Shown one piece after another: positions 2,293 to 13,735 of a stretch of DNA of 64,000 bases (positions within the stretch are counted from its first letter, which is position 1; each line of letters opens with the position of its first letter). The translations under genes were made by a program, and so were the position numbers. Location: contig CASDRS010000010.1 in assembly GCA_949283255.1 (NCBI GenBank), positions 1 to 64,000 on the forward strand, read 5' to 3'. The stretch comes from an uncultured bacterium. GTDB taxonomy: Bacteria > Cyanobacteriota > Vampirovibrionia > Gastranaerophilales > Gastranaerophilaceae. The notes under the pieces are model-generated. The model was not told the origin of the DNA. It did not search any database and worked only from the letters and a program-made list of their open reading frames with translations.

Positions 2293-4335
2293 ATGAAAAA
2301 GAAAAAAGTTATTGCATATTTACATACCCATTGGGACAGAGAATGGTATAGAGAATTTGAAATTTTCAGACTCAGATTGTTAAGAGTTTTCGATAATATT
2401 TTGGAACTTTTAGAACAAAATAAAATACCCGCTTTTTATTTCGACGGGCAAGTTTCAGCTATTTTAGATTACCTTGAAATCAGACCTGAAAAAGAAAAAT
2501 TAATCAGAAAATTTATTGCAGAAAAAAAGCTTTTTATCGGACCTTGTTACACCCTTGTTGATGAATTTTTAACCGACAAAGCTGCATTTGAATACAACCT
2601 GAAAATTGGACTTCAGATTTCCAGAAACTTTGGCTGTGAGGACTTTATAGGTTATTTGGCAGATACTTTCGGGCACAGCAAAAATATCCCAACTCTTTTC
2701 AAAAAATACGGAATTGATAAATGTGTGGTTTGGAGAGGATGCGGAGATATTCCTTCCGAGTTTATGTTTAATGGAGTAAAAACAGTTAATCTTATCAGGG
2801 GATATTTTATGGATATTTTTTCTTCAAAAATTTCTATTGAAGAAAAAGCTTCTTGGCTAAAAGGGAACCTTGATAAAATCGCAGAAAAATCAGGAGATAC
2901 TCTTCTGCTTCCGATAGGCGCAGATCATCTCGGGATTGAACCTGACATAAGCGAACAGATCAAAAAAGTAAACACTATTTTAAAAGATTATGAAATAAAG
3001 TTATCTACACCATTTGAATATTTTGAACTAGTTAAAAATAACTTTAAAACCGAATGGAATGATGAATTAAGAGATAACAGCAAAACATTTATTCTACAAG
3101 GCTGCTATTCTGCAAGAACAAAAATTAAACAATACAATGCAGAAGCTTCATTCAAAATAGAACTGGCTGACAAAATTCAAAAAGAATTTGGCTCAAAGTA
3201 TGATAAATCAATAGAATACGCCTACAAACTTCTACTAAAAAATCAGGCTCACGATGGAATTTGCGGATGCTCTACCGATGCAGTACACAGAGAAAATATC
3301 ACCAGATACGAAAAAATTATTCAGGTAGCTGAAACCATTTTAAAAGAACTGAAATTTCTTAACCCTGAAAAATATGAACGTATTTGGACATCTTATGTAA
3401 GCACATTCAGCTCTTTAATAAAAGAAGAAGGAACAGAACCTCCAAAAAATTCACAAATAATTTCAAGAAGAAAAGGTTTTGTTGATGATCTTCTTTATGA
3501 CACACAGAGAATACCGATAACAGAAGATTACACAACAATTTACACATACCTGAAAGAACTTTCGCCTTCAAAAGACAAACTAATCGTAACTGACAACAAA
3601 ATTTCAAATACAAAAATCAAATTAACAGTAGAAAACGGGAAAATAAAAACTTCCGACGGAGTAATAATTGATTTTGTCAGATACAAAGACTTGGGCGACA
3701 CTTATAATTTTGGAGCAAAAGAAGACGACACGCCTGAGATTGCAAAGATAATTTCATCTTCAGCAATAATAAAAGGCAACCTTAGAGTCGGGCTCAGAAT
3801 TAAAACAAGCTTTTTTAATGTAAACATATACCTAGACAAAAACTCCAAAATCTTAAGATTTAAAATTGATTGGAATAACAGATTAAAAAACAGTCTGTGG
3901 CAAATAAGATTTAGCACACAATCTCCAATTTTAAAGACTGCCTCAGAGGATCTCGGAAGTATCATTACCAGAAATTTTGATCCAAACTACAACTTAAGAG
4001 AACACCTTCCAAAACAACGAGGAATTGAGGTTTGGACAAACACAGCACCAATGGAGAGATATGTAAGCATAAATCTCAAAAATAACAAACACTTTGGAAT
4101 AGTAACCAAAGGTCTTACTGAATATGAAGTATACAAAAATACTTTATCCATAACACTGCTAAGATCAACGGGAATTATCTCAAATCCGAAAAACCCTTCA
4201 CGCTCAACACCTGCAGGTCCGCCGATAGAAGTTCCGGAAGCACAGCAACTCGGAAGAAATCAAGTTGAATTTGCAATTGGAGAAATCAACCCTGAAAATT
4301 ATGTAAATCAGGTAAATGAGCTATTTTTAGGCTAG
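2293..4335 (+). CDS. Glycoside hydrolase family 38 (alpha-mannosidase-like)
   Basis: A 680-residue protein with GH38 features: HTHWDREW at residues 11-18 (zinc-binding His and Asp), YLADTFGHS around 122 with the predicted nucleophile Asp124, and NQAHDGICGCSTD near 317-329 carrying a further zinc-ligand His-Asp. Family members release terminal alpha-mannose with retention; no signal peptide is seen, so a cytoplasmic role on imported glycans is likely. At 680 residues it is shorter than the roughly 850-1000 usual for bacterial members; the C-terminal beta-sandwich looks reduced. The start is the only reasonable ATG but lacks a Shine-Dalgarno sequence. The 3' end overlaps the convergent gene by 9 bp. 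Confidence 0.85.
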   Translation: MKKKKVIAYLHTHWDREWYREFEIFRLRLLRVFDNILELLEQNKIPAFYFDGQVSAILDYLEIRPEKEKLIRKFIAEKKLFIGPCYTLVDEFLTDKAAFEYNLKIGLQISRNFGCEDFIGYLADTFGHSKNIPTLFKKYGIDKCVVWRGCGDIPSEFMFNGVKTVNLIRGYFMDIFSSKISIEEKASWLKGNLDKIAEKSGDTLLLPIGADHLGIEPDISEQIKKVNTILKDYEIKLSTPFEYFELVKNNFKTEWNDELRDNSKTFILQGCYSARTKIKQYNAEASFKIELADKIQKEFGSKYDKSIEYAYKLLLKNQAHDGICGCSTDAVHRENITRYEKIIQVAETILKELKFLNPEKYERIWTSYVSTFSSLIKEEGTEPPKNSQIISRRKGFVDDLLYDTQRIPITEDYTTIYTYLKELSPSKDKLIVTDNKISNTKIKLTVENGKIKTSDGVIIDFVRYKDLGDTYNFGAKEDDTPEIAKIISSSAIIKGNLRVGLRIKTSFFNVNIYLDKNSKILRFKIDWNNRLKNSLWQIRFSTQSPILKTASEDLGSIITRNFDPNYNLREHLPKQRGIEVWTNTAPMERYVSINLKNNKHFGIVTKGLTEYEVYKNTLSITLLRSTGIISNPKNPSRSTPAGPPIEVPEAQQLGRNQVEFAIGEINPENYVNQVNELFLG

Positions 4336-5598
4336 TCCTTTTTCTTCTCTTCTCTTCTTCAACTCATCAGAATCCACGACAAGAGTGCTGTCTTTAACGT
4401 CGGTTTCTTCAGTCTTGTCAGAAGAAATTTTGACCTCTTCACTCTTCTTGTCTTCTTCTTGATTAGCTGTACCGTTAGTATTATCAGTACCATCAGTACC
4501 TTGTGCCTGATTGTCAGTACCCTCAGTCCTATCTATTCTCGGGATTTCAATTCCGCCAACACCTGTTGCATCCTCGACTGTTAATTGAGCACCTTCAACT
4601 CTTGCAAATTGAGCCTCTATATTCGCTTGAGAAGCACTTACGGCATCATCACCTTTAGCTCCTGCATCCATAGCATTACCGCCATTTTTCAAATCTATAA
4701 CACCCATCCTGTAATTTCTGTCAAACAACATAGAGAACAATTTGTATTTTGAAGCATTCAAAGCAACTTTTGCTGTATTTACTCCATTTGCATTTTTTGC
4801 AGCTTCATTAATCTGTTGCTGCTTTTCTTGATCTCCAGTCATTAATTCAGCACCAATATCAACAGTTTCCGTACCAAAATCAGTTGCTGTCAGAGGTATT
4901 GAATTAAATTGCTCAATCTCTGCATCCAACTCGTTTAACTGAGCACCAATTTGCGTAATATCTTGTTGAGCTTGAGCACCCAACCCATTTAATATCGTAC
5001 CTAAAGCCGCAATCCTGTTTAAATCAGCAGGACTCAAATCTTGATCTTTATTTTGAGCTTTTTCCAATAGTCTGTCCAGTTCTTGCTTTAACGAAGATGT
5101 CCTATTTTCTACAGCATTAGCTCTGACTTCAGCAGCAGTACTAATTTTTTCGGCCTGTTTATCATCAATCCTAAGCTTTAACTCCATCATCTTTTCAGCC
5201 TGAGTTGCAGAAACACTTTGAGAAGACATCGCTTTCCCCTGCTCATACTTACTCTCGCCGCTCAATTCCATACTCTGCCTAAACTGCTGAGCCTGTGTAG
5301 AAGAAGCCTTCTCTGCCGCATCGTCAGCATCAGGCTCATCACTTTGCGAATTTGCATCATTAATTTCATCCAGCGTAGTTGCACCATTTACCGATTCATA
5401 AGTTACATCATCAGGCGCATCCTGCAGTTTACTAACTTCCTCTGCCCAACGCACTATCTCCTCAGGAATATCCTCGCCCTGATTCATATAATCCATAATT
5501 TGACTTGGAGTTAATCGTTCCCAAGCTATATCTGTATTTTTTTTCTTATCAAAATAAGTTCTTACCGCATTTTGTATTGAACTTACCGCTTCTACCAT
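4327..5598 (-). CDS. Unrecognised acidic, Gln/Ala-rich coiled-coil protein
   Basis: 423 residues, no family recognised. The N-terminal 70 residues look folded (WERLTPSQIMDYMNQGEDIPEEIVRW). The middle (about 80-270) is rich in Gln, Ala, Glu and Lys and probably alpha-helical or coiled coil. A short conserved-looking block NASKYKLFSMLFDRNYRMG follows near 285. The C-terminus is low-complexity (repeated GTDN/TNGT and many Asp, Glu, Lys). No signal peptide or membrane segment. The start is supported by GGAGG ten bases upstream. The KYKL block recurs at the C-terminus of the 113-residue protein at 6119-6460, suggesting the two are related or share a partner. Probably lineage-specific. Confidence 0.7.
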   Translation of the reverse strand: MVEAVSSIQNAVRTYFDKKKNTDIAWERLTPSQIMDYMNQGEDIPEEIVRWAEEVSKLQDAPDDVTYESVNGATTLDEINDANSQSDEPDADDAAEKASSTQAQQFRQSMELSGESKYEQGKAMSSQSVSATQAEKMMELKLRIDDKQAEKISTAAEVRANAVENRTSSLKQELDRLLEKAQNKDQDLSPADLNRIAALGTILNGLGAQAQQDITQIGAQLNELDAEIEQFNSIPLTATDFGTETVDIGAELMTGDQEKQQQINEAAKNANGVNTAKVALNASKYKLFSMLFDRNYRMGVIDLKNGGNAMDAGAKGDDAVSASQANIEAQFARVEGAQLTVEDATGVGGIEIPRIDRTEGTDNQAQGTDGTDNTNGTANQEEDKKSEEVKISSDKTEETDVKDSTLVVDSDELKKRREEKGLA

Positions 5599-5677
5599 TT
5601 TTGAGGTTCCTCCGCTGTATTGCTATTATTCAAATCTTTTAACGGCACTTTTAATTGAAAACTTTAAAATATTATAT

Positions 5678-5698
5678 TAACTTTTGTAACAAAAGTTA
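5678..5698. promoter_or_regulatory. Perfect 9-bp palindrome, candidate operator
   Basis: TAACTTTTG and its exact complement CAAAAGTTA flank a central TAA. It lies between the divergently transcribed 423-residue and 58-residue genes, about 80 bases before each start. Its symmetry and position suit a dimeric regulator; no T-run follows, so a terminator is unlikely. Confidence 0.4.
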
Positions 5699-5781
5699 GA
5701 TAAATGATATATAAAAAGTCAATATTTTTAGGAAAAAATTTTTTATATAAGTACGAGAGATAAAAAGAAGAGAGGTTTAAA

Positions 5782-5958
5782 ATGGCTAAGACAATTTTAA
5801 TGCCGAACACGGTAACTGATACATATAAAAACACTTCAAAAGCAATAAGTGAAGTCGACTTATCAGGTAAACACATCATAAGAAAATCATTAGTAGAAAT
5901 TATGAGACAATCTTTCTTCCATGGTGCAAACATTTACGGAAACAATTTTATCGCATAA
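5782..5958 (+). CDS. Small unrecognised protein, 58 aa
   Basis: A complete small gene: AGAGAGG six bases before the ATG, 58 codons, TAA, then a strong terminator at 6013-6037. The product begins MAKTILMPNT and ends NIYGNNFIA; it is mildly basic, with no signal peptide or membrane segment. It stands alone between the 423- and 113-residue genes on its own transcription unit. The good ribosome site and dedicated terminator make it likely to be real. Function unknown. Confidence 0.65.
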   Translation: MAKTILMPNTVTDTYKNTSKAISEVDLSGKHIIRKSLVEIMRQSFFHGANIYGNNFIA

Positions 5959-6012
5959 TATCGTTGGAATATAGGAAATATAGGAAAAGAAAATCTAAAA
6001 AAGGACATATCT

Positions 6013-6037
6013 TGCCGGCAAAAAGCCGGCATTTTTA
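6013..6037 (+). terminator. Terminator after the 58-residue gene
   Basis: A GC-rich 7-bp stem TGCCGGC/GCCGGCA with an AAAAA loop is followed by TTTTTATT. It is a typical rho-independent terminator, 55 bases past the stop codon. Confidence 0.85.
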
Positions 6038-6118
6038 TTACAAATTGTAACAAAAATGTTTAAAAAATTATATATATGGGTATATATATAATATATACTA
6101 ATTGGAGGAGTTAGAGCT

Positions 6119-6460
6119 ATGTCAATGAACGTGTCAGCGATGAGCGGAACGGCATCTGGAATAATGATAGACAGCGAATATCAAAGAATAATTCGTGAAC
6201 TTAGAGCATTGGGGATAGAACCAACAGGAAACAAGACAACAGACAAAGCAAAACTGGAAGAAGCAAAAGCATCGAAAGCAAAACAGACAAATCAAGTCGA
6301 CAACATTCAGTTTGTTAACAAAACAGAAGATACAGAAAAAGCAGGAGAAGAATCTTCAAAAGACACAATTAAAAATGACAAAACCGTACAAGCAGAACAA
6401 ATGACAGGCGCAACACAGCTGGCACAATTAAACAAATACAAACTTCTGGGACTGTACTAG
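6119..6460 (+). CDS. Unrecognised small protein with SAP-like N-terminal region
   Basis: 113 residues, preceded by GGAGGAG eleven bases before the ATG. Residues 22-50 (IIRELRALGIEPTGNKTTDK and on) resemble the helix-turn-helix of a SAP-type motif, which in other proteins binds DNA, but this is only a visual resemblance. The middle is Lys/Glu/Thr-rich and probably disordered; the protein ends NKYKLLGLY, echoing the KYKL block of the 423-residue neighbour. No signal peptide. The upstream region is extremely AT-rich and contains TTGTAACAAAAATG, a variant of half of the 5678-5698 palindrome. Confidence 0.65.
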   Translation: MSMNVSAMSGTASGIMIDSEYQRIIRELRALGIEPTGNKTTDKAKLEEAKASKAKQTNQVDNIQFVNKTEDTEKAGEESSKDTIKNDKTVQAEQMTGATQLAQLNKYKLLGLY

Positions 6461-6475
6461 AGAGAAAAAACTTAA

Positions 6476-7372
6476 TTAATATTGAACATATTCAAAATCT
6501 TTAAAATCAGATGGGGATGAGAACATCTCATAATCACTCATCAAAAAACCACCTGAGAAAGTGATAGATTTTCTATTACTTCCCTTAGGGAAAGTTAGGA
6601 TATTATCGCCATTCAAACCAACGATTGTAGATCTTATATTTTTAATATCCTCTTCGGTATTAGGTCTTGTTGAAATAATTCGGATATTAGAAATATGTCT
6701 GTTATTATCAACTTTAAAGGTGAAATAAAACAAAGTGCCATACGGAGCCTCAACATCAGAATGTTCCATAATAGTATTTTGAAGATCACTTCTCCACTTA
6801 TTCCACGCAATTAATTCAGCTCTAACCTTTGGATTTTTAAGCTGGTCGCATATTGAGCAACCAGAAGATGAATCCGTATTTTTATCAACTTTAGGCTTTT
6901 CAGTTCTTGTTTGCGAGGAAGAATTATTAGAAACCGGCTCCTCCGGAGACGGAAGAATTTCTGTATTGAGCATTTTTTCAACTTGCTCAAGCACTTTATC
7001 ACTATTATCTAAAACCTGAGATTGAGAATTTGCCTGACTATCAGGATTACTTTGTGAATTTCCATTATTAACAGGCATATTTTGAATAAAATCAGAAGGA
7101 ATAATCTTCACATCAGAAGGAATAATCGGCGCATCCGAAGTTTCAACTGATTGACTGTTAGAAACATTTGGCAAATCCACTATTTGAACAGGAGCATCAC
7201 CTATCTTAAACATTCTGACACTCTGAAGATCCGTAGGCCGCTGGCTTAATCCGCTGATTTTAAAATCCGGAGGGGTTAAGATAAACTGCTTATGCACGCC
7301 CGGTCTAATTGTCGATGCTATTATTGTCGACAATAAAACTGCTATAATAACAAATATACTTAAAATTTTCAT
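6476..7372 (-). CDS. TonB-like membrane-anchored protein
   Basis: 298 residues. One N-terminal membrane segment (about 3-19), then a long Ser/Asn/Gln/Pro-rich linker (about 45-165), a CSIC pair near 172-175, and a C-terminal domain (about 185-298) with the alpha/beta pattern of a TonB C-terminal domain (GTLFYFTFKVDNNRHISNIR). TonB-type proteins link an energised inner membrane to outer-membrane partners. No ExbB/ExbD pair is adjacent; instead it closes a three-gene minus-strand module with FHA-like and VWA membrane proteins. The ATG is one base past the upstream stop (TAATATG), so translation is probably coupled. The TonB fold is inferred from pattern only; TolA-like is an alternative. Confidence 0.6.
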   Translation of the reverse strand: MKILSIFVIIAVLLSTIIASTIRPGVHKQFILTPPDFKISGLSQRPTDLQSVRMFKIGDAPVQIVDLPNVSNSQSVETSDAPIIPSDVKIIPSDFIQNMPVNNGNSQSNPDSQANSQSQVLDNSDKVLEQVEKMLNTEILPSPEEPVSNNSSSQTRTEKPKVDKNTDSSSGCSICDQLKNPKVRAELIAWNKWRSDLQNTIMEHSDVEAPYGTLFYFTFKVDNNRHISNIRIISTRPNTEEDIKNIRSTIVGLNGDNILTFPKGSNRKSITFSGGFLMSDYEMFSSPSDFKDFEYVQY

Positions 7373-7373
7373 A

Positions 7374-8981
7374 TTAATCTTTGTCTAATTTGGAAATTAA
7401 TTCATCACAAGCCCAAACTTCATAACGAGTCTGAGCAAGCATCAACGTTTCGGCAATAAGTAATGCCGTAGGCACAAGAGCAGCTATAATACTTAGCATA
7501 ACACCTCTAAAATCACCGCCTGTTTCACTCATAAAGTATGATACGTTCATCATAAATTCAATAAAAATAATTACACAGGCAATACTCATAAATAATCTCT
7601 TATCAGATTCAAGCTTTCTTGTACCCTCAAGCCCGTATATAGAAACACCGTGCTGACGATAATCAGTAAACCCGTCCTGTTTTATAACCTGTGAACCTTG
7701 AATTTTCTTCCCAGTTAAAAACGCACTTACAAAAGAGAAAAACGCAAATATAATCAAGAAAGTTGCAAGCCCTAAAAACACAGGACTAAATCTTAAACCT
7801 GAAATTCTAACCCATCCAGCAGCTTCAGGGAAACACATTGCAAGAGTGTTTGAAACACCATACGCAAGCAAAGGTGCCGTTAATATACCGATTACAATTT
7901 CACCGAAAGATTTCAATTGCAACATAAACATCTTGTCTTTTATATTATTAATCTTAGTATGACTCAAAGAATTTACAAATCTGTCAATCCAAACTCTATA
8001 AGACTTTAATACAGTCTCAAAATCCTCTCTAAACTCATACTTATTTAAAACTGCATTATATTCCATACTATTGCTTTTAAAATACCCGCATCCAATTGCC
8101 AAAGCTGTCATTATGCCGACAAAGAAGAAAGTTAAAAATATAGAAAAAGCAACAAAATTACTCAATGACATAAAATATATCTGGTTAACTGTATAAATTC
8201 CGATAATAAAAATCGCAGCCCCCCATAACATAAAGTTCTTAGCAAGAACCGCCGACTGAGAAAGTTTCATTGATTTACTCTGCAAATACAAATAAACGCC
8301 CTGTTTTAGCATTAAAGCAATAGAGAAGACGATAAATGAATAAGCAATCCATGCCTGCACATTTGTTGCAAGATAAACTTGTCTGGAAGCTTCCTGAGTA
8401 GACAAACCCATCAAATAATTTGCAACTGCAAACGAACTCAAAATAGAACTGATATAAAGTGCAATATGCAAGAAGATACTTGTTCTGGTATTTGCCATAA
8501 TTTTTGATTTTAATTCTGATATAGGATAAGCAATCTGCTTTATAATAGCAATCCTAGCTTTTTCCAGAGGCGCTCTAGATTTTTCAAGCTTCACTTTCGA
8601 AATTACACTCGGATCATCCCCATACAAATCTTTCAGCTGAGTATCGGAAAGATTAACAATATCAACGGAGTTCATATCAATCACCCCGACAGAATCAACG
8701 TGAACCTCAACAAATTCCGTGCTGTTGTTAAATGTAATCTTGCAAACTCTATCAACCTTAATACGACCGAGCACCTGTCCTTTAAAAAGAACATTCGGAT
8801 TTTTAAAATTATTTGAAACAAAGCATTCCCCTGTTTCACGATTAACCTGAACAGTTATTATTACGTCATACCCTATCTGCAAAACGCAATCACATTTAGG
8901 GTTGTTTCCGATATTAATCAAATTTTTGTTTTTAAATTGTTTTTCTCCGGAAGAAGATTTAATAGTAATAGTAGCTGCCAT
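7374..8981 (-). CDS. Polytopic membrane protein with FHA-like N-terminal domain
   Basis: 535 residues. Residues 1-100 resemble a forkhead-associated domain (INIGNNPKCDCVLQIG, then beta-rich segments), which in other proteins binds phosphothreonine peptides. About eight hydrophobic membrane segments follow between residues 165 and 525, arranged roughly in pairs. AAGGA lies eight bases before the ATG. It is the middle gene of a module: VWA protein, this gene, TonB-like protein. I do not recognise the membrane domain; regulatory or scaffold function is inferred only from the FHA-like head. Confidence 0.55.
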   Translation of the reverse strand: MAATITIKSSSGEKQFKNKNLINIGNNPKCDCVLQIGYDVIITVQVNRETGECFVSNNFKNPNVLFKGQVLGRIKVDRVCKITFNNSTEFVEVHVDSVGVIDMNSVDIVNLSDTQLKDLYGDDPSVISKVKLEKSRAPLEKARIAIIKQIAYPISELKSKIMANTRTSIFLHIALYISSILSSFAVANYLMGLSTQEASRQVYLATNVQAWIAYSFIVFSIALMLKQGVYLYLQSKSMKLSQSAVLAKNFMLWGAAIFIIGIYTVNQIYFMSLSNFVAFSIFLTFFFVGIMTALAIGCGYFKSNSMEYNAVLNKYEFREDFETVLKSYRVWIDRFVNSLSHTKINNIKDKMFMLQLKSFGEIVIGILTAPLLAYGVSNTLAMCFPEAAGWVRISGLRFSPVFLGLATFLIIFAFFSFVSAFLTGKKIQGSQVIKQDGFTDYRQHGVSIYGLEGTRKLESDKRLFMSIACVIIFIEFMMNVSYFMSETGGDFRGVMLSIIAALVPTALLIAETLMLAQTRYEVWACDELISKLDKD

Positions 8982-8992
8982 ATAATATATCC

Positions 8993-9661
8993 TTATCTTT
9001 CAAGCGCATGTATAAATTGTCTTATTGCCTTATCACAATTTTGTTTAGGTGAAACAATAAGTTTAGATTCACCCAAAACAGGAGTCAAAGCCTCCTTTAC
9101 AACATCCAATTTTTCAGGATGAGCATATAAAAACATCATAGCCAAATCAGGAGCCTTGGCCTTAGCTCTTCGAACTTCTGCAGGGAAAGTATTCCAATTC
9201 AACTGTTTTTCACTCACCCCTTCATTTTCAAGATCACCAATAACAACAACTGCAGGCATATAACCCAATTTTTTCATTTCAAGAGAATAATTGAGCGCCT
9301 TCCTAAGCCCGACACCATAAGCCGTGCCATAATCTTTTTCATCATATGCCGTAAAAGCTTCCATAACTTTGTTTATATTAGAGCCGTTGAAAGGGGCACC
9401 CTCATAAATCAAATATGCATCTTCCGATACACGAATAATTTTTATTTTATCTTCAGGATCAAGAAGATTACAAATTTGCCTTAAAAGCTTTTTCTGTTCA
9501 GGTAAGTCCTTCTGATTAGAAGCTGAAGAGTCAACAACGAACATAACCGCCGCAGGCTTAAAATTATCAACTTTTATTTTTGTCAGTCCTGACCACACAA
9601 GCTTCAAAATCACAGAAGCCATAAGAACAACTATTCCAAGTATTATCAGTCTTTTGTTCAT
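8993..9661 (-). CDS. Membrane-anchored von Willebrand factor A domain protein
   Basis: 222 residues from the ATG chosen here. One N-terminal membrane segment (about 4-24), then a VWA domain with the metal-ion site DSSAS near residue 45 and a second acidic site GDLENEG near 145. VWA domains bind ligands through a divalent metal and often act in membrane-complex assembly. An in-frame TTG 22 codons upstream overlaps the -10 box TATAAT at 9717-9722, so translation most likely starts at 9661. First gene of the VWA/FHA-like/TonB-like module, 11 bases before the next start. Confidence 0.7.
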   Translation of the reverse strand: MNKRLIILGIVVLMASVILKLVWSGLTKIKVDNFKPAAVMFVVDSSASNQKDLPEQKKLLRQICNLLDPEDKIKIIRVSEDAYLIYEGAPFNGSNINKVMEAFTAYDEKDYGTAYGVGLRKALNYSLEMKKLGYMPAVVVIGDLENEGVSEKQLNWNTFPAEVRRAKAKAPDLAMMFLYAHPEKLDVVKEALTPVLGESKLIVSPKQNCDKAIRQFIHALER

Positions 9662-9711
9662 AAACCAACTCTTTTCCTGAATGATATCATAATTTACAAA
9701 CTTTCGCAATA

Positions 9712-9741
9712 TTGCTATTATAGCCAAGATTATGTTATAAT
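9712..9741 (+). promoter_or_regulatory. plsY promoter overlapping a divergent promoter
   Basis: Plus strand: TTGCTA (9712-9717), 18 bp, TATAAT (9736-9741) preceded by TGT, an extended -10. The minus strand carries its own TATAAT at 9717-9722 for the VWA gene. The two core promoters overlap, so the polymerases may compete. Confidence 0.55.
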
Positions 9742-9776
9742 ACCATACGTTATTAAAATTAGATTAGGGAGACTTT

Positions 9777-10379
9777 ATGGAAATATTAGAAACAATACTT
9801 ACTGTGCTGATAGCGTATCTTATCGGTTCAATTCCAACCGGCTATATTATCGTAAAAACAGCTACAGGCCAAGATATAAGAACAATAGGTTCAGGTTCAA
9901 CAGGCGCAACCAACGTAAAAAGAGTTATGGGCAAGAAATGGTTTTTCATAACACTTCTTTTGGATGCATTTAAAGGTGCATTACCTGTTATTTTGGCCAA
10001 AATATTTGCTACAACATTTACGACTATAGGATTGCTGCCTGTACTGGCTGCCATTGCGGTAATTTTAGGTCATTCAAAATCAATATTTTTGAAATTTACC
10101 GGCGGAAAATCAGTTGCCTCAGGAGTTGGAACAATACTTGCTCTAAATTGGCAGGTAGGACTAATTATTGCCTTAATTTGGTCTATTATCACTTACGTAT
10201 CAAAATATGTCTCACTCGGTTCAATTATTGCACTGGCAATATCTCCATTCTTAATGTATTTTATTGACGGGCACTATGCATACGTAGGATATTGCGCACT
10301 GGGAGCAATTTATATTATTTGGCTTCACCGCTCCAACATCAAAAGACTTATTAAAGGCGAAGAAAATAAAGTTAGATAA
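9777..10379 (+). CDS. plsY: Acyl-phosphate glycerol-3-phosphate acyltransferase PlsY
   Basis: 200-residue integral membrane enzyme that transfers an acyl group from acyl-phosphate to glycerol-3-phosphate, the first step of phospholipid synthesis. Seen: YLIGSIPTGYII near the N-terminus, the loop IRTIGSGSTGATNVKR, the segment LLLDAFKGALPV, and GHSKSIFLKFTGGKSVASGVG, all conserved in PlsY, with five or so membrane segments. Normal length. AGGGAG lies six bases before the ATG. Partner PlsX is not in the window. Confidence 0.95.
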   Translation: MEILETILTVLIAYLIGSIPTGYIIVKTATGQDIRTIGSGSTGATNVKRVMGKKWFFITLLLDAFKGALPVILAKIFATTFTTIGLLPVLAAIAVILGHSKSIFLKFTGGKSVASGVGTILALNWQVGLIIALIWSIITYVSKYVSLGSIIALAISPFLMYFIDGHYAYVGYCALGAIYIIWLHRSNIKRLIKGEENKVR

Positions 10380-10480
10380 GAATACAAGAACAAGCGGAAA
10401 CTATTGTCTGAACAATACATTAGAGCAAAGCAAATTGTTAAAAAATAATAAATTTTACTTCAATATTGTTTTTGTTGTTC

Positions 10481-10486
10481 TATAAT
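10481..10486 (+). promoter_or_regulatory. -10 box of the grpE promoter
   Basis: Perfect TATAAT. The expected start of transcription is near 10493, downstream of an in-frame ATG at 10495 or just before it, which supports the ATG at 10516 as the grpE start. No convincing -35 box is seen, and no CIRCE (HrcA) element is visible. Confidence 0.5.
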
Positions 10487-10515
10487 TGAACTATATGATT
10501 AAAAGAGGTAGAGAT

Positions 10516-11100
10516 ATGAAAAATAAACATGGACATAACCCGTTTAAAAACGCAGAAATAACAGAAGACGCAACAGAAAAAGAAACTGAAACTTCTGAAA
10601 ACACAAAAGAAGATGATGTTAAAGAAACGGCTTCTGATAGCGAAAAGAATGATTTTGACAAATTAAAAGAAGATTTTGACAATTTGAATAACCAGTATTT
10701 AAGACTAGCCGCAGATTTTGACAATTACAGAAAAAGACAAGAAACAGAAAGAGAAAATTTGTTAAAATTCGGGACCGAAAATGCATTGAAAAAGATGATA
10801 GAAGTTCTTGATAATTTTGAACGAGGTAAAAAATCTCTTGAAGGCATCGAAGATTGTCAAAAAGTAAAAGACAGCTTTGATATGATACACAAACAAGTAA
10901 TTGATGCACTGTCTAAGCTTGGATTGGAAGAAATAAAAGCCGAAGGCGAAGAGTTCGATCCTAATTTCCACGACGCAATAATGAGAACCCCAACAACAGA
11001 ATACCCTGAAAATACAGTAATAAAAGAATTACAAAAGGGTTATAAGATGGGCGACAAAGTATTGAGACCAACACTGGTAAATGTCGCAACAGAAGGTTAA
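10516..11100 (+). CDS. grpE: Nucleotide exchange factor GrpE
   Basis: 194 residues. GrpE drives ADP release from DnaK. Seen: acidic, disordered N-terminus (to about 45), the long coiled coil containing NQYLRLAADFDNYRKRQETE, and the C-terminal beta domain with FDPNFHDAIM and GYKMGDKVLRPTLVNVA. The chosen ATG has AGAGG seven bases upstream; earlier in-frame starts lie at or before the predicted transcript start. dnaJ follows after 74 bases with its own promoter; dnaK is not in the window. Confidence 0.95.
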   Translation: MKNKHGHNPFKNAEITEDATEKETETSENTKEDDVKETASDSEKNDFDKLKEDFDNLNNQYLRLAADFDNYRKRQETERENLLKFGTENALKKMIEVLDNFERGKKSLEGIEDCQKVKDSFDMIHKQVIDALSKLGLEEIKAEGEEFDPNFHDAIMRTPTTEYPENTVIKELQKGYKMGDKVLRPTLVNVATEG

Positions 11101-11102
11101 GA

Positions 11103-11133
11103 TTGGACACGAGTACAAAATTAAAGTTATAAT
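11103..11133 (+). promoter_or_regulatory. Candidate dnaJ promoter
   Basis: TTGGAC (11103-11108), 19 bp, perfect TATAAT (11128-11133), lying between the grpE stop and the dnaJ start. The spacing is a little long. Confidence 0.4.
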
Positions 11134-11174
11134 GAAATAGGAAGAATAAGAAGATATCAGAAGAATAGGGAACA

Positions 11175-12305
11175 ATGGCAGATTATTATGAAATATTAGG
11201 TGTCTCAAAAGATGCCTCTAAGGATGAGATAAAATCCGCTTTTAGACAGAAAGCGAGGAAGCTGCACCCTGATGTAAACAAAGCCCCGGATGCAGAAGAA
11301 AGATTTAAAGAATTAGGAAAAGCGTATGAAACGCTAATGGATGATAATAAACGTGCAACATACGACCGTTATGGAGAAGATGGTCTAAAGAATGCAGGAT
11401 TTAATACAAACGGACCGTTTGAAGGCGGATTTGGGGATTTAAATGATATCTTCAATACCTTCTTTGGAGGTTTTGGCGGAGGCTTCGGCTTTGGAGGAGG
11501 CAGACCGGATCCTAATGCACCACAAGCAGGAGATGATTTGCGATATGACGTAGAAATCACTTTTGAAGAAGCAGTTTTTGGAACAACAAAAGAAATTACT
11601 TTTGACCACCTTGAGACATGTACCGAATGCGGAGGAACAGGAGCTGAAAAAGGTTCTAAGCCTATCACTTGCCCTACATGCCACGGAACAGGTCAAGTTC
11701 AGACAGTTGCAAGGACTCCTCTTGGAGCATTCACTCAAATTAGTCCTTGTCCAGATTGTCACGGAACTGGTGTAAAGATTTCAAAACCATGCAAAGCTTG
11801 TAAGGGTTATGGTAAAGTAGAAAAAGAAAAGAAAATAGAAATAAAAATTCCTGCAGGCGTTGACAGCCATTCTAAGATGAGAGTTTCAGGAGAAGGCGAC
11901 GCAGGCAAAAACGGAGGAAGAGCAGGCGACTTATTTGTAGTAATCCACGTCAAGCCGTCAGATTACTTTACAAGAGACGGCGCAGACGTATATACAAAAC
12001 TGCAAATCACACCAGAACAAGCCGTTCTTGGTGACGAAGTAATGATAAAAACTTTGGATGGCGAACAAAAAGTTCAAATACATGCCGGCATACAAAACGG
12101 AAATACAATAAGAATAAGAAATGCAGGTGTACCAATACTTTCAAGGCCATCGCAAAGAGGCGATCACATAATAGTTGTATCGGTAAAAATACCGACACAA
12201 TTAAGCGAACAAGAAAAAGATTTATACAGAAAGATTTACGAACTGAGAAGCGGTAAAAAACCGCAAGAATCGTTACTATCAAAAGTAAAGGGAGTATTTC
12301 AATAA
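11175..12305 (+). CDS. dnaJ: Chaperone DnaJ
   Basis: 376 residues, the full type I Hsp40 layout: J domain (1-70) with the HPD motif, a Gly/Phe-rich stretch (about 75-110), four CxxCxGxG zinc repeats ([32 protein letters not shown]; about 150-220), and the C-terminal substrate-binding and dimer domains. It delivers clients to DnaK and stimulates its ATPase. RBS AGGGAA before the ATG. The stop codon overlaps the ATG of the exported beta-propeller gene (TAATG). Confidence 0.97.
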
Positions 12306-13735
12306 TGCGCAAATTTTTAATCGGGATCGGAATATTAATGAGTCTGTCATTAGGGACTGCAATTGGCGCCCCGCTTCCCGATAACGTTCAGACATTTGTA
12401 AAATCAGCCTTTCCGGAAACGAACTTTCGTTTTGACGGAGTAGTTATATTGCCTGACAACACAGTATATTTACCGTTAATTCCATCAAAATTCAATGACG
12501 GAAACGAAGTAAAAATAAAATCTACCATTCCGGCAGGTCAAACTCTAAGCCAAAAGCCGGATGTAATAATACTTAGTAACGACTATGTACTTCTAAAAAT
12601 GCTAACAAACAACAAAGGTAAGAACACTATTGTTAATTTAACAATACCTCCTTTGGAATTAAGGACAGGACTATTTCCGCAAGATATGCTGGTACCAAAG
12701 AATTTTATAGTACCTGCAAACTTAAAGAATATAATAGGTAATCTGAATATTCAAACTACACACGATACAGGCTTGGTAATTCCTGTATCACAACCAAAAG
12801 CAGGAGCAGTTGTAAATACACTTGCAGACACTCCGCAATTACAAAACAAGACATTTTATATTACAACCAATTTAACCAAAAATATTCAAGTTGTAAGCCC
12901 TGAGAGAAAACTTGCAAGTTATGCTCTTTATCAGGAAAACACTCCTATAATGTTAAAAGGATATCAGGATTTTCTATTGGTAACGTCTTATGGCAAAAAA
13001 TCTGTTGATGTTATTTCCTTAGCAGATGAAAAAGTTATCAAAGAAATTTCGTTTAAAACTCAACCTGATGAAATCGTAATAGATGAAAAAAATAAACTTG
13101 CATACATCTCAAGCGGAGAAGATGCAAGTATGTATGTTGTCGACTTAAATACAATGACAATAAAAAAACAACTCCGTTTGAATGGTATGTGCGAAAAAGT
13201 GACATTAAGCGATGACGGTACAAAATTATTTTATAATGACAAACAAACAAGAGAAATTTGGGCAGTTGAACTTGACAATGATTACTTGCTAAAAGAGATC
13301 GGGAGATTTCCGAATGTCTCTAAAATAGCTTACATAAACGGGAAAGTATACATTACAAGCAGAACGAAGAACCGTCTTGCAATAGTAGATTACGAGACGA
13401 TGGGTCTTATGTCTGAGAATGAAATTTCAGAAAAGCCTGTAGATATGTTTGTATACAAAGATAATTTATTTATACTTGGGGCAGGCAACAAAACAATTGA
13501 TGTTATAGACACAACAATTGATACAAGAACTCAGACAATAGAATTGCCATCAAATATTTTCCCAACAAAAATTACACAAGTTGGCAATTCAAATATAGCC
13601 TTAATAACAGATGCAAAAGCAGGGTGTTATTCAATTCTTGATTTAGATAAAAAAGCAATTATAAAAACAAATCAGCTGGAAACCCCTGTAAGCTCAATAC
13701 TCATTACAAACAAAGTTAAGAAAATAGGAAAATGA
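12305..13735 (+). CDS. Exported beta-propeller protein (YncE/YVTN-like)
   Basis: 476 residues. N-terminal signal peptide (about 1-21, hydrophobic core ending GTAIGA). A domain of about 140 residues follows (FDGVVILPDNTVYLPLIPSK), then propeller-like repeats from about 190 to the end with YVTN-type blades (KSVDVISLADEKVIKEI, KLAYISSGEDASMYVVDL, NKTIDVIDTTIDTRTQTIEL). Such proteins are usually periplasmic binding or scaffold proteins. The start overlaps the dnaJ stop by one base, and the stop overlaps the next start by four (ATGA), so three genes look translationally coupled. Ligand unknown. Confidence 0.7.
   Translation: MRKFLIGIGILMSLSLGTAIGAPLPDNVQTFVKSAFPETNFRFDGVVILPDNTVYLPLIPSKFNDGNEVKIKSTIPAGQTLSQKPDVIILSNDYVLLKMLTNNKGKNTIVNLTIPPLELRTGLFPQDMLVPKNFIVPANLKNIIGNLNIQTTHDTGLVIPVSQPKAGAVVNTLADTPQLQNKTFYITTNLTKNIQVVSPERKLASYALYQENTPIMLKGYQDFLLVTSYGKKSVDVISLADEKVIKEISFKTQPDEIVIDEKNKLAYISSGEDASMYVVDLNTMTIKKQLRLNGMCEKVTLSDDGTKLFYNDKQTREIWAVELDNDYLLKEIGRFPNVSKIAYINGKVYITSRTKNRLAIVDYETMGLMSENEISEKPVDMFVYKDNLFILGAGNKTIDVIDTTIDTRTQTIELPSNIFPTKITQVGNSNIALITDAKAGCYSILDLDKKAIIKTNQLETPVSSILITNKVKKIGK

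Follow-up and report, generated by a model that had tools for sequence, protein, structure and literature searches.

Three consecutive genes on the minus strand of the window, the whole 64,000-nucleotide stretch of DNA analysed here, encode a VWA protein (F2), a membrane protein with an FHA-like head (F0) and a TonB/TolA-like protein (F1). The open reading frames lie where the earlier note had placed them, and the tight spacing that it gave as 1-11 bases corresponds to intergenic gaps of 11 bases between F2 and F0 and 1 base between F0 and F1. The features of the region are the following:

8993..9661, minus strand: F2, VWA protein of 222 aa, with one N-terminal transmembrane helix followed by the VWA domain
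9518..9532, minus strand: MIDAS motif DSSAS, F2 residues 44-48, read from the sequence; with T113 and D143 it makes up a complete site
7374..8981, minus strand: F0, protein of 535 aa with an FHA-fold head and an eight-segment membrane domain
8682..8981, minus strand: residues 1-100 of F0, predicted FHA fold lacking the arginine that binds phosphothreonine (structure prediction and residue counts)
7557..7559, minus strand: codon of E475, a glutamate invariant in F0 (109/109) and placed centrally in membrane segment 7
6476..7372, minus strand: F1, protein of 298 aa with one transmembrane helix, a P-x-x-H-K motif, a long disordered linker and a TonB/TolA-like C-terminal domain
6518..6835, minus strand: predicted TonB/TolA C-terminal fold, F1 residues 180-285 (structure prediction)
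9662..9776, minus strand: intergenic region between the operon and the divergent plsY; presumed operon promoter, judged by position only
9777-10379: plsY, divergent and upstream of the trio

The ATG at 9661 is the F2 start common to the homologues, and a longer TTG start at 9727 is also present. The dN/dS values ranged from 0.03 to 0.20 across 11 comparisons, with dS saturated in most, indicating that the trio is under purifying selection; together with the linkage in relatives described below, this argues that the genes are not chance open reading frames. Promoter-like matches in the 6300-9900 region (19) were not clearly more numerous than in shuffled sequences (13.8, s.d. 3.5), and no RNA families were found at 4000-12500. 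The proteins adjoining the trio, encoded at 4327-5598 (minus strand) and 6119-6460 (plus strand), are conserved at that place in the genus, the first being found in 10/29 compared regions and the second in 4/29; neither matched a family in Pfam or NCBIfam.

A check of synteny had been proposed for the trio, and the genes were found to stay linked in relatives. F0 and F1 occur together in 80/80 named-genome loci, which are the best 80 of 127 loci found and many of which are labelled Candidatus Gastranaerophilales. F2 was found upstream of F0 in 72/80, and the eight loci that lack it all have F9, another VWA gene, nearby. The median gaps in these loci are 13 and 2 bases. The first set of relatives, which shares some genomes with the 80-locus set and is not independent of it, showed F1 with F0 in 28/28 loci and F2 in 27/28. 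Matches to the F0 profile were present in 193/286 genomes of the order and 89/244 of the phylum, all of them in the window's family except for one in genome G040, which is 66 percent complete and whose match may come from a misbinned contig. The profile searches thus confine the F0 family, apart from one doubtful case, to a single family of Gastranaerophilales. G030 gave a weak F0 match (E 2.9e-4; L040), which was left out of the counts, as no trio was found around it. No description of this operon was found in the open-licence PMC literature, and the module has no characterised relative because it is restricted to one lineage.

The VWA domain of F2 was recognised by the Pfam VWA_2 model (34.7 bits, 3e-8; cut-off 27), in agreement with the VWA gene with MIDAS motif DSSAS that the earlier note had read at this place. 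The MIDAS residues are kept in 95-98 of 100 F2 sequences (D44 98, S46 98, S48 97, T113 95, D143 96), so by sequence the domain carries a complete MIDAS (D44-x-S46-x-S48, T113, D143), with metal-dependent ligand binding predicted. Topology reasoning would put the VWA domain on the periplasmic side. The available portion of PMC12204202 describes VWA force transducers that work with TolQ-like motors, having either the motor-contact motif S-x3-H in the helix of the VWA protein or a transpore Asp, together with an adjacent tolQ. F2 is like them an inner-membrane-tethered VWA protein thought to act across the envelope, but it lacks both S-x3-H in the helix region (0/100) and an acidic residue (Asp or Glu) in its most hydrophobic 19-residue window (0/100), and therefore fits neither class set out in that portion of the paper; a histidine at the edge of the helix region was found in 1/100 sequences, outside any S-x3-H. 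It differs further in that no ExbB lies on the contig of the trio and in being joined to FHA and TonB-like partners. VWA proteins of the relative Vampirovibrio have been considered possible attachment factors, according to the text available from PMC4451040.

The AlphaFold model of F0 had a mean pLDDT of 80.8; this model and that of F1 were each built from alignments of 29 sequences. The FHA-like head on an eight-segment membrane protein, as F0 had been described, was recovered in both parts. All 50 VIA-align rows listed for residues 1-100 are FHA-domain proteins, some identified by title and others presumed by us to be such, with a best Z of 13.0 to Rv1747 FHA-1, and an FHA domain or protein is named in the majority of the top 14 Foldseek matches, so the structure predictions indicate that the head adopts an FHA fold. 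F0 also contains eight hydrophobic segments. The head is like phosphothreonine-binding FHA domains in fold, but it differs from them in the position that we take to hold the binding arginine, after the conserved glycine and located through an I-G-x motif, where S (71), T (31), N (6) and A (1) were found among 109 sequences and arginine in none. A search for Hanks Ser/Thr kinases (PF00069) was negative in 14/14 genomes of the window's family, while the same search was positive in 11/14 controls. Since the arginine is missing and no Pkinase match was obtained, kinase-fed signalling through the FHA domain, for which a kinase search had been suggested, was rejected. In genus g25 of the same family the FHA domain is a stand-alone gene of 99 aa (L089-L093, near 6000-7000), which in L092 adjoins genes for outer-membrane efflux, MarR, HlyD and two MFS proteins.

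No Pfam or NCBIfam family was found for F0. For the membrane domain, the Pfam matches are scattered and below the cut-off, a PDB sequence search gave one match (E 0.22) and Foldseek gave low-probability transporter matches only; no fold is named here, and none is claimed as new. E475 lies in a segment with local hydropathy of 1.84. K226, N266 and N479 are likewise invariant, and E361 and E511 are at least 98 percent conserved, these residues mapping in or near other helices. Such conservation of polar residues suggests that the membrane domain has a role beyond anchoring.

In the AlphaFold model of F1 a single helix is followed by a disordered linker and then by a C-terminal domain that is folded, with pLDDT above 90 over most of residues 180-285. 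The TonB-like C-terminal domain after a long linker, noticed earlier from the sequence, is invisible to Pfam and NCBIfam models and was recovered by structure comparison. In VIA-align the top 23 rows for residues 180-285 were all TonB/TolA C-terminal domains (Z 8.3 to 4.6), led by V. cholerae TolA at 8.3, a value tied with the next row at 8.2 and barely above the level that VIA-align calls common, the fold being small; H. pylori TonB scored 7.2. The first nine Foldseek matches were all TonB, TonB homologues or TolA, with weak E-values (best 0.022). These models indicate that F1 ends in a TonB/TolA fold, and the structure check proposed for F0 and F1 thus came out in favour of both folds. The juxtamembrane P-x-x-H-K motif is well conserved among 111 F1 sequences (P24 105, H27 100, K28 88).

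The idea of a self-contained three-gene unit, implied by the earlier note, was not supported: most relatives have a five-gene operon, F4-F2-F0-F1-F3, of which the trio represents the reduced core. F4 is an exported-looking protein with a glycine-zipper region at its end (Pfam matches below cut-off); one of the three F4 proteins scanned matched the TrbI model (VirB10/TrbI) at 14.2 bits against a cut-off of 35, and the other two did not match. F3 begins with a zinc-ribbon-like head (CxxC and CDCG), from which a helix and a long linker lead to a TonB domain. The g38 form of F3 reached 35.2 bits with TonB_2 (cut-off 22), and 13/14 F3 members matched tonB_Cterm at E up to 1 (best 1.5e-5). Homology between F1 and F3 is not claimed, as hhalign of their alignments gave a probability of 14 percent and they may not be close homologues. 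Two further families were found around the operon. F10, encoded upstream of F4, is a small protein with a single helix and the same helix-P-x-x-H-K start as F1. The start of F9, often convergent behind F3, resembles a signal peptide, and a DxSGS motif was read in its sequence.

The F0 tree, from a quick search with SH-aLRT support only, midpoint rooting and several long branches, contained two main groups, one beside plsY and the other with F10 and F9. Members of the plsY group have F4 and F3, F3 alone, or neither, an arrangement that makes the form in the window the most reduced; along the tree F4 and F3 are lost stepwise and the trio stays intact. The window's genome contains F4 paralogues elsewhere, and a full F3 was not found in it, only a 66-codon match to the first 81 positions of F3. 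A third form of the operon, of VWA-F0-F3 type, was observed in genus g38 (L096, L098) after two genes, which in L096 are TrkA and TrkH of potassium transport.

The absence of an ExbB/ExbD motor that had been remarked on stands for the operon and not for the genome, which carries one ExbB and two ExbD genes, all on contig C17, whereas the trio is on C10. ExbB was present in 23/23 and ExbD in 22/23 genomes searched. At the TonB-ExbB-ExbD-ExbD locus of the window's genome (L204, G000 contig C17, 5238-9532) the 405-aa TonB encoded there keeps S-x3-H, and an F4 paralogue and another exported-looking protein are found upstream; the F4 family is thereby connected with a TonB-type machine. Adjoining this locus (L204, 2085-5087) is a gene for a protein of 1000 aa that looks secreted and has the appearance of a two-partner-secretion exoprotein.

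S-x3-H was found in the helix region of 0/111 F1 and 0/76 F3 sequences (0/187 together), whereas the same script detected it in 2/2 canonical TonB proteins, a third locus (L208) having been skipped by the control filter. A histidine occurs at the edge of the helix region in 11/111 F1 and 5/76 F3, none of them within S-x3-H. The TonB-dependent receptor plug domain was detected in 1/13 genomes of the genus and was absent from the window's own genome. F1 therefore resembles TonB and TolA transducers in its single N-terminal helix, disordered linker and C-terminal fold, but differs from them in lacking S-x3-H, a linked ExbBD and, in the genus, almost any TonB-dependent receptors.

We consider, with a probability of about 0.55, that the three genes make up the minimal core of a trans-envelope tether or transducer peculiar to this lineage, a reading in line with the envelope-spanning complex suggested in the earlier note. 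To our knowledge, the gut relatives of cyanobacteria have an envelope of two membranes about which little is known. F0 would be the inner-membrane hub, with a cytoplasmic FHA head binding a partner without needing phosphothreonine and with eight helices, including the invariant buried glutamate, holding the complex. F2 would present its metal-dependent MIDAS-containing VWA domain in the periplasm, and F1 would span the periplasm through its disordered linker so that its C-terminal domain could dock, probably through the strand addition used by TonB and TolA, with a partner close to the outer membrane. The exported-looking glycine-zipper protein F4 and the zinc-ribbon TonB-like protein F3 would join the module in most relatives. 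Such a module would link the outer layer, as a tether or as a coupler, with an event in the cytoplasm or membrane. In principle this resembles Agl-Glt or Tol, although the known motor contact is lacking.

Like the module, the Agl-Glt machine of Myxococcus (GltG, GltJ, AglRQS, CglB) has FHA and TonB-type domains located at the inner membrane, and both also include a second TonB-like protein and a VWA protein. GltJ carries zinc-ribbon and GYF domains, and F3 joins its zinc-ribbon-like head to a TonB domain. The single TolQ-type and two TolR-type motor genes of the window's genome, unlinked to the trio, match the AglR-AglQ-AglS make-up, and F9 is an exported-looking VWA protein. GltG combines FHA and TonB domains and contacts AglR, as described in the available part of PMC3169522, and GltG and GltJ are TolA/TonB-like according to the portion of PMC5349195 at hand. 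Such parts could be read as a gliding or adhesion machine of this kind, in which the FHA and zinc-ribbon heads would lie in the cytosol, the TonB-type domains would serve as arms in the periplasm, a VWA protein would be the adhesin and the ExbB/two-ExbD set would act as a motor like AglRQS. We regard it as unlikely: the FHA and TonB domains that GltG has in one protein are here on separate proteins (F0 and F1 are separate, adjacent genes in 80/80 loci), the FHA domain is fused to eight membrane segments, the motor genes lie outside the operon, S-x3-H is absent, and no F3 member comes near the GltJ model (17.2 bits in 1/14 members, against a cut-off of 450). No report of gliding in these bacteria was found in the parts of the literature available. 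On these comparisons, which covered GltG, GltJ and the AglRQS motor genes, we do not count the module as a member of Agl-Glt, with which it has a parts list in common and not sequences, gene order or motor contact; we would rather class it with TonB/TolA-type coupling across the envelope, as a new variant. The cyanobacterial TonB-like protein SjdR, which is similar to GltJ and has no TonB-like periplasmic domain according to the available text of PMC8262864, is by that account a further example of a cyanobacterial protein that is annotated as TonB yet stands apart from TonB-dependent transport.

An envelope-maintenance or sensing complex, in which the VWA-MIDAS and TonB-like domains would sense the periplasm or cell wall and signal inward through F0 and its FHA head, appears improbable as well. 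The invariant polar residues in the F0 helices and the separable FHA head would fit signalling, and the varied neighbours across genera (plsY, TrkA-TrkH, efflux genes) a general envelope role, but the loci have no kinase, regulator or response gene as a constant neighbour and the FHA pocket lacks its arginine. Quite unlikely, in our estimate, is that F0 is an unrecognised ion-driven motor or energy-coupling subunit replacing ExbB/ExbD, in which E475 with K226, N266, E361, N479 and E511 would form an ion path moving the F1 arm and F2. That F1 and F3 are extra TonB proteins sharing the genome's single ExbBD motor and driving outer-membrane import is very unlikely, despite ExbB and ExbD in nearly all genomes searched and the TonB/TolA fold of F1, given that their helix regions lack the S-x3-H of canonical TonB and that the receptor plug domain is so rare in the genus.

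Under the preferred reading, a tether or transducer, a whole family would carry TonB/TolA-type arms that lack the known motor contact, in a genus almost devoid of TonB-dependent receptors, and this would widen the range of trans-envelope coupling. F0, as an eight-segment FHA protein without a named family, would be a candidate new coupling or motor part. Mini-proteins of ~65 residues, in which a zinc-ribbon-like head is joined to a single helix, were also observed (L216-L219; G000 contig C9 18008-18205). They are homologous to the beginning of F3 and are encoded close to a gene that looks like one for a GGDEF-HD protein.
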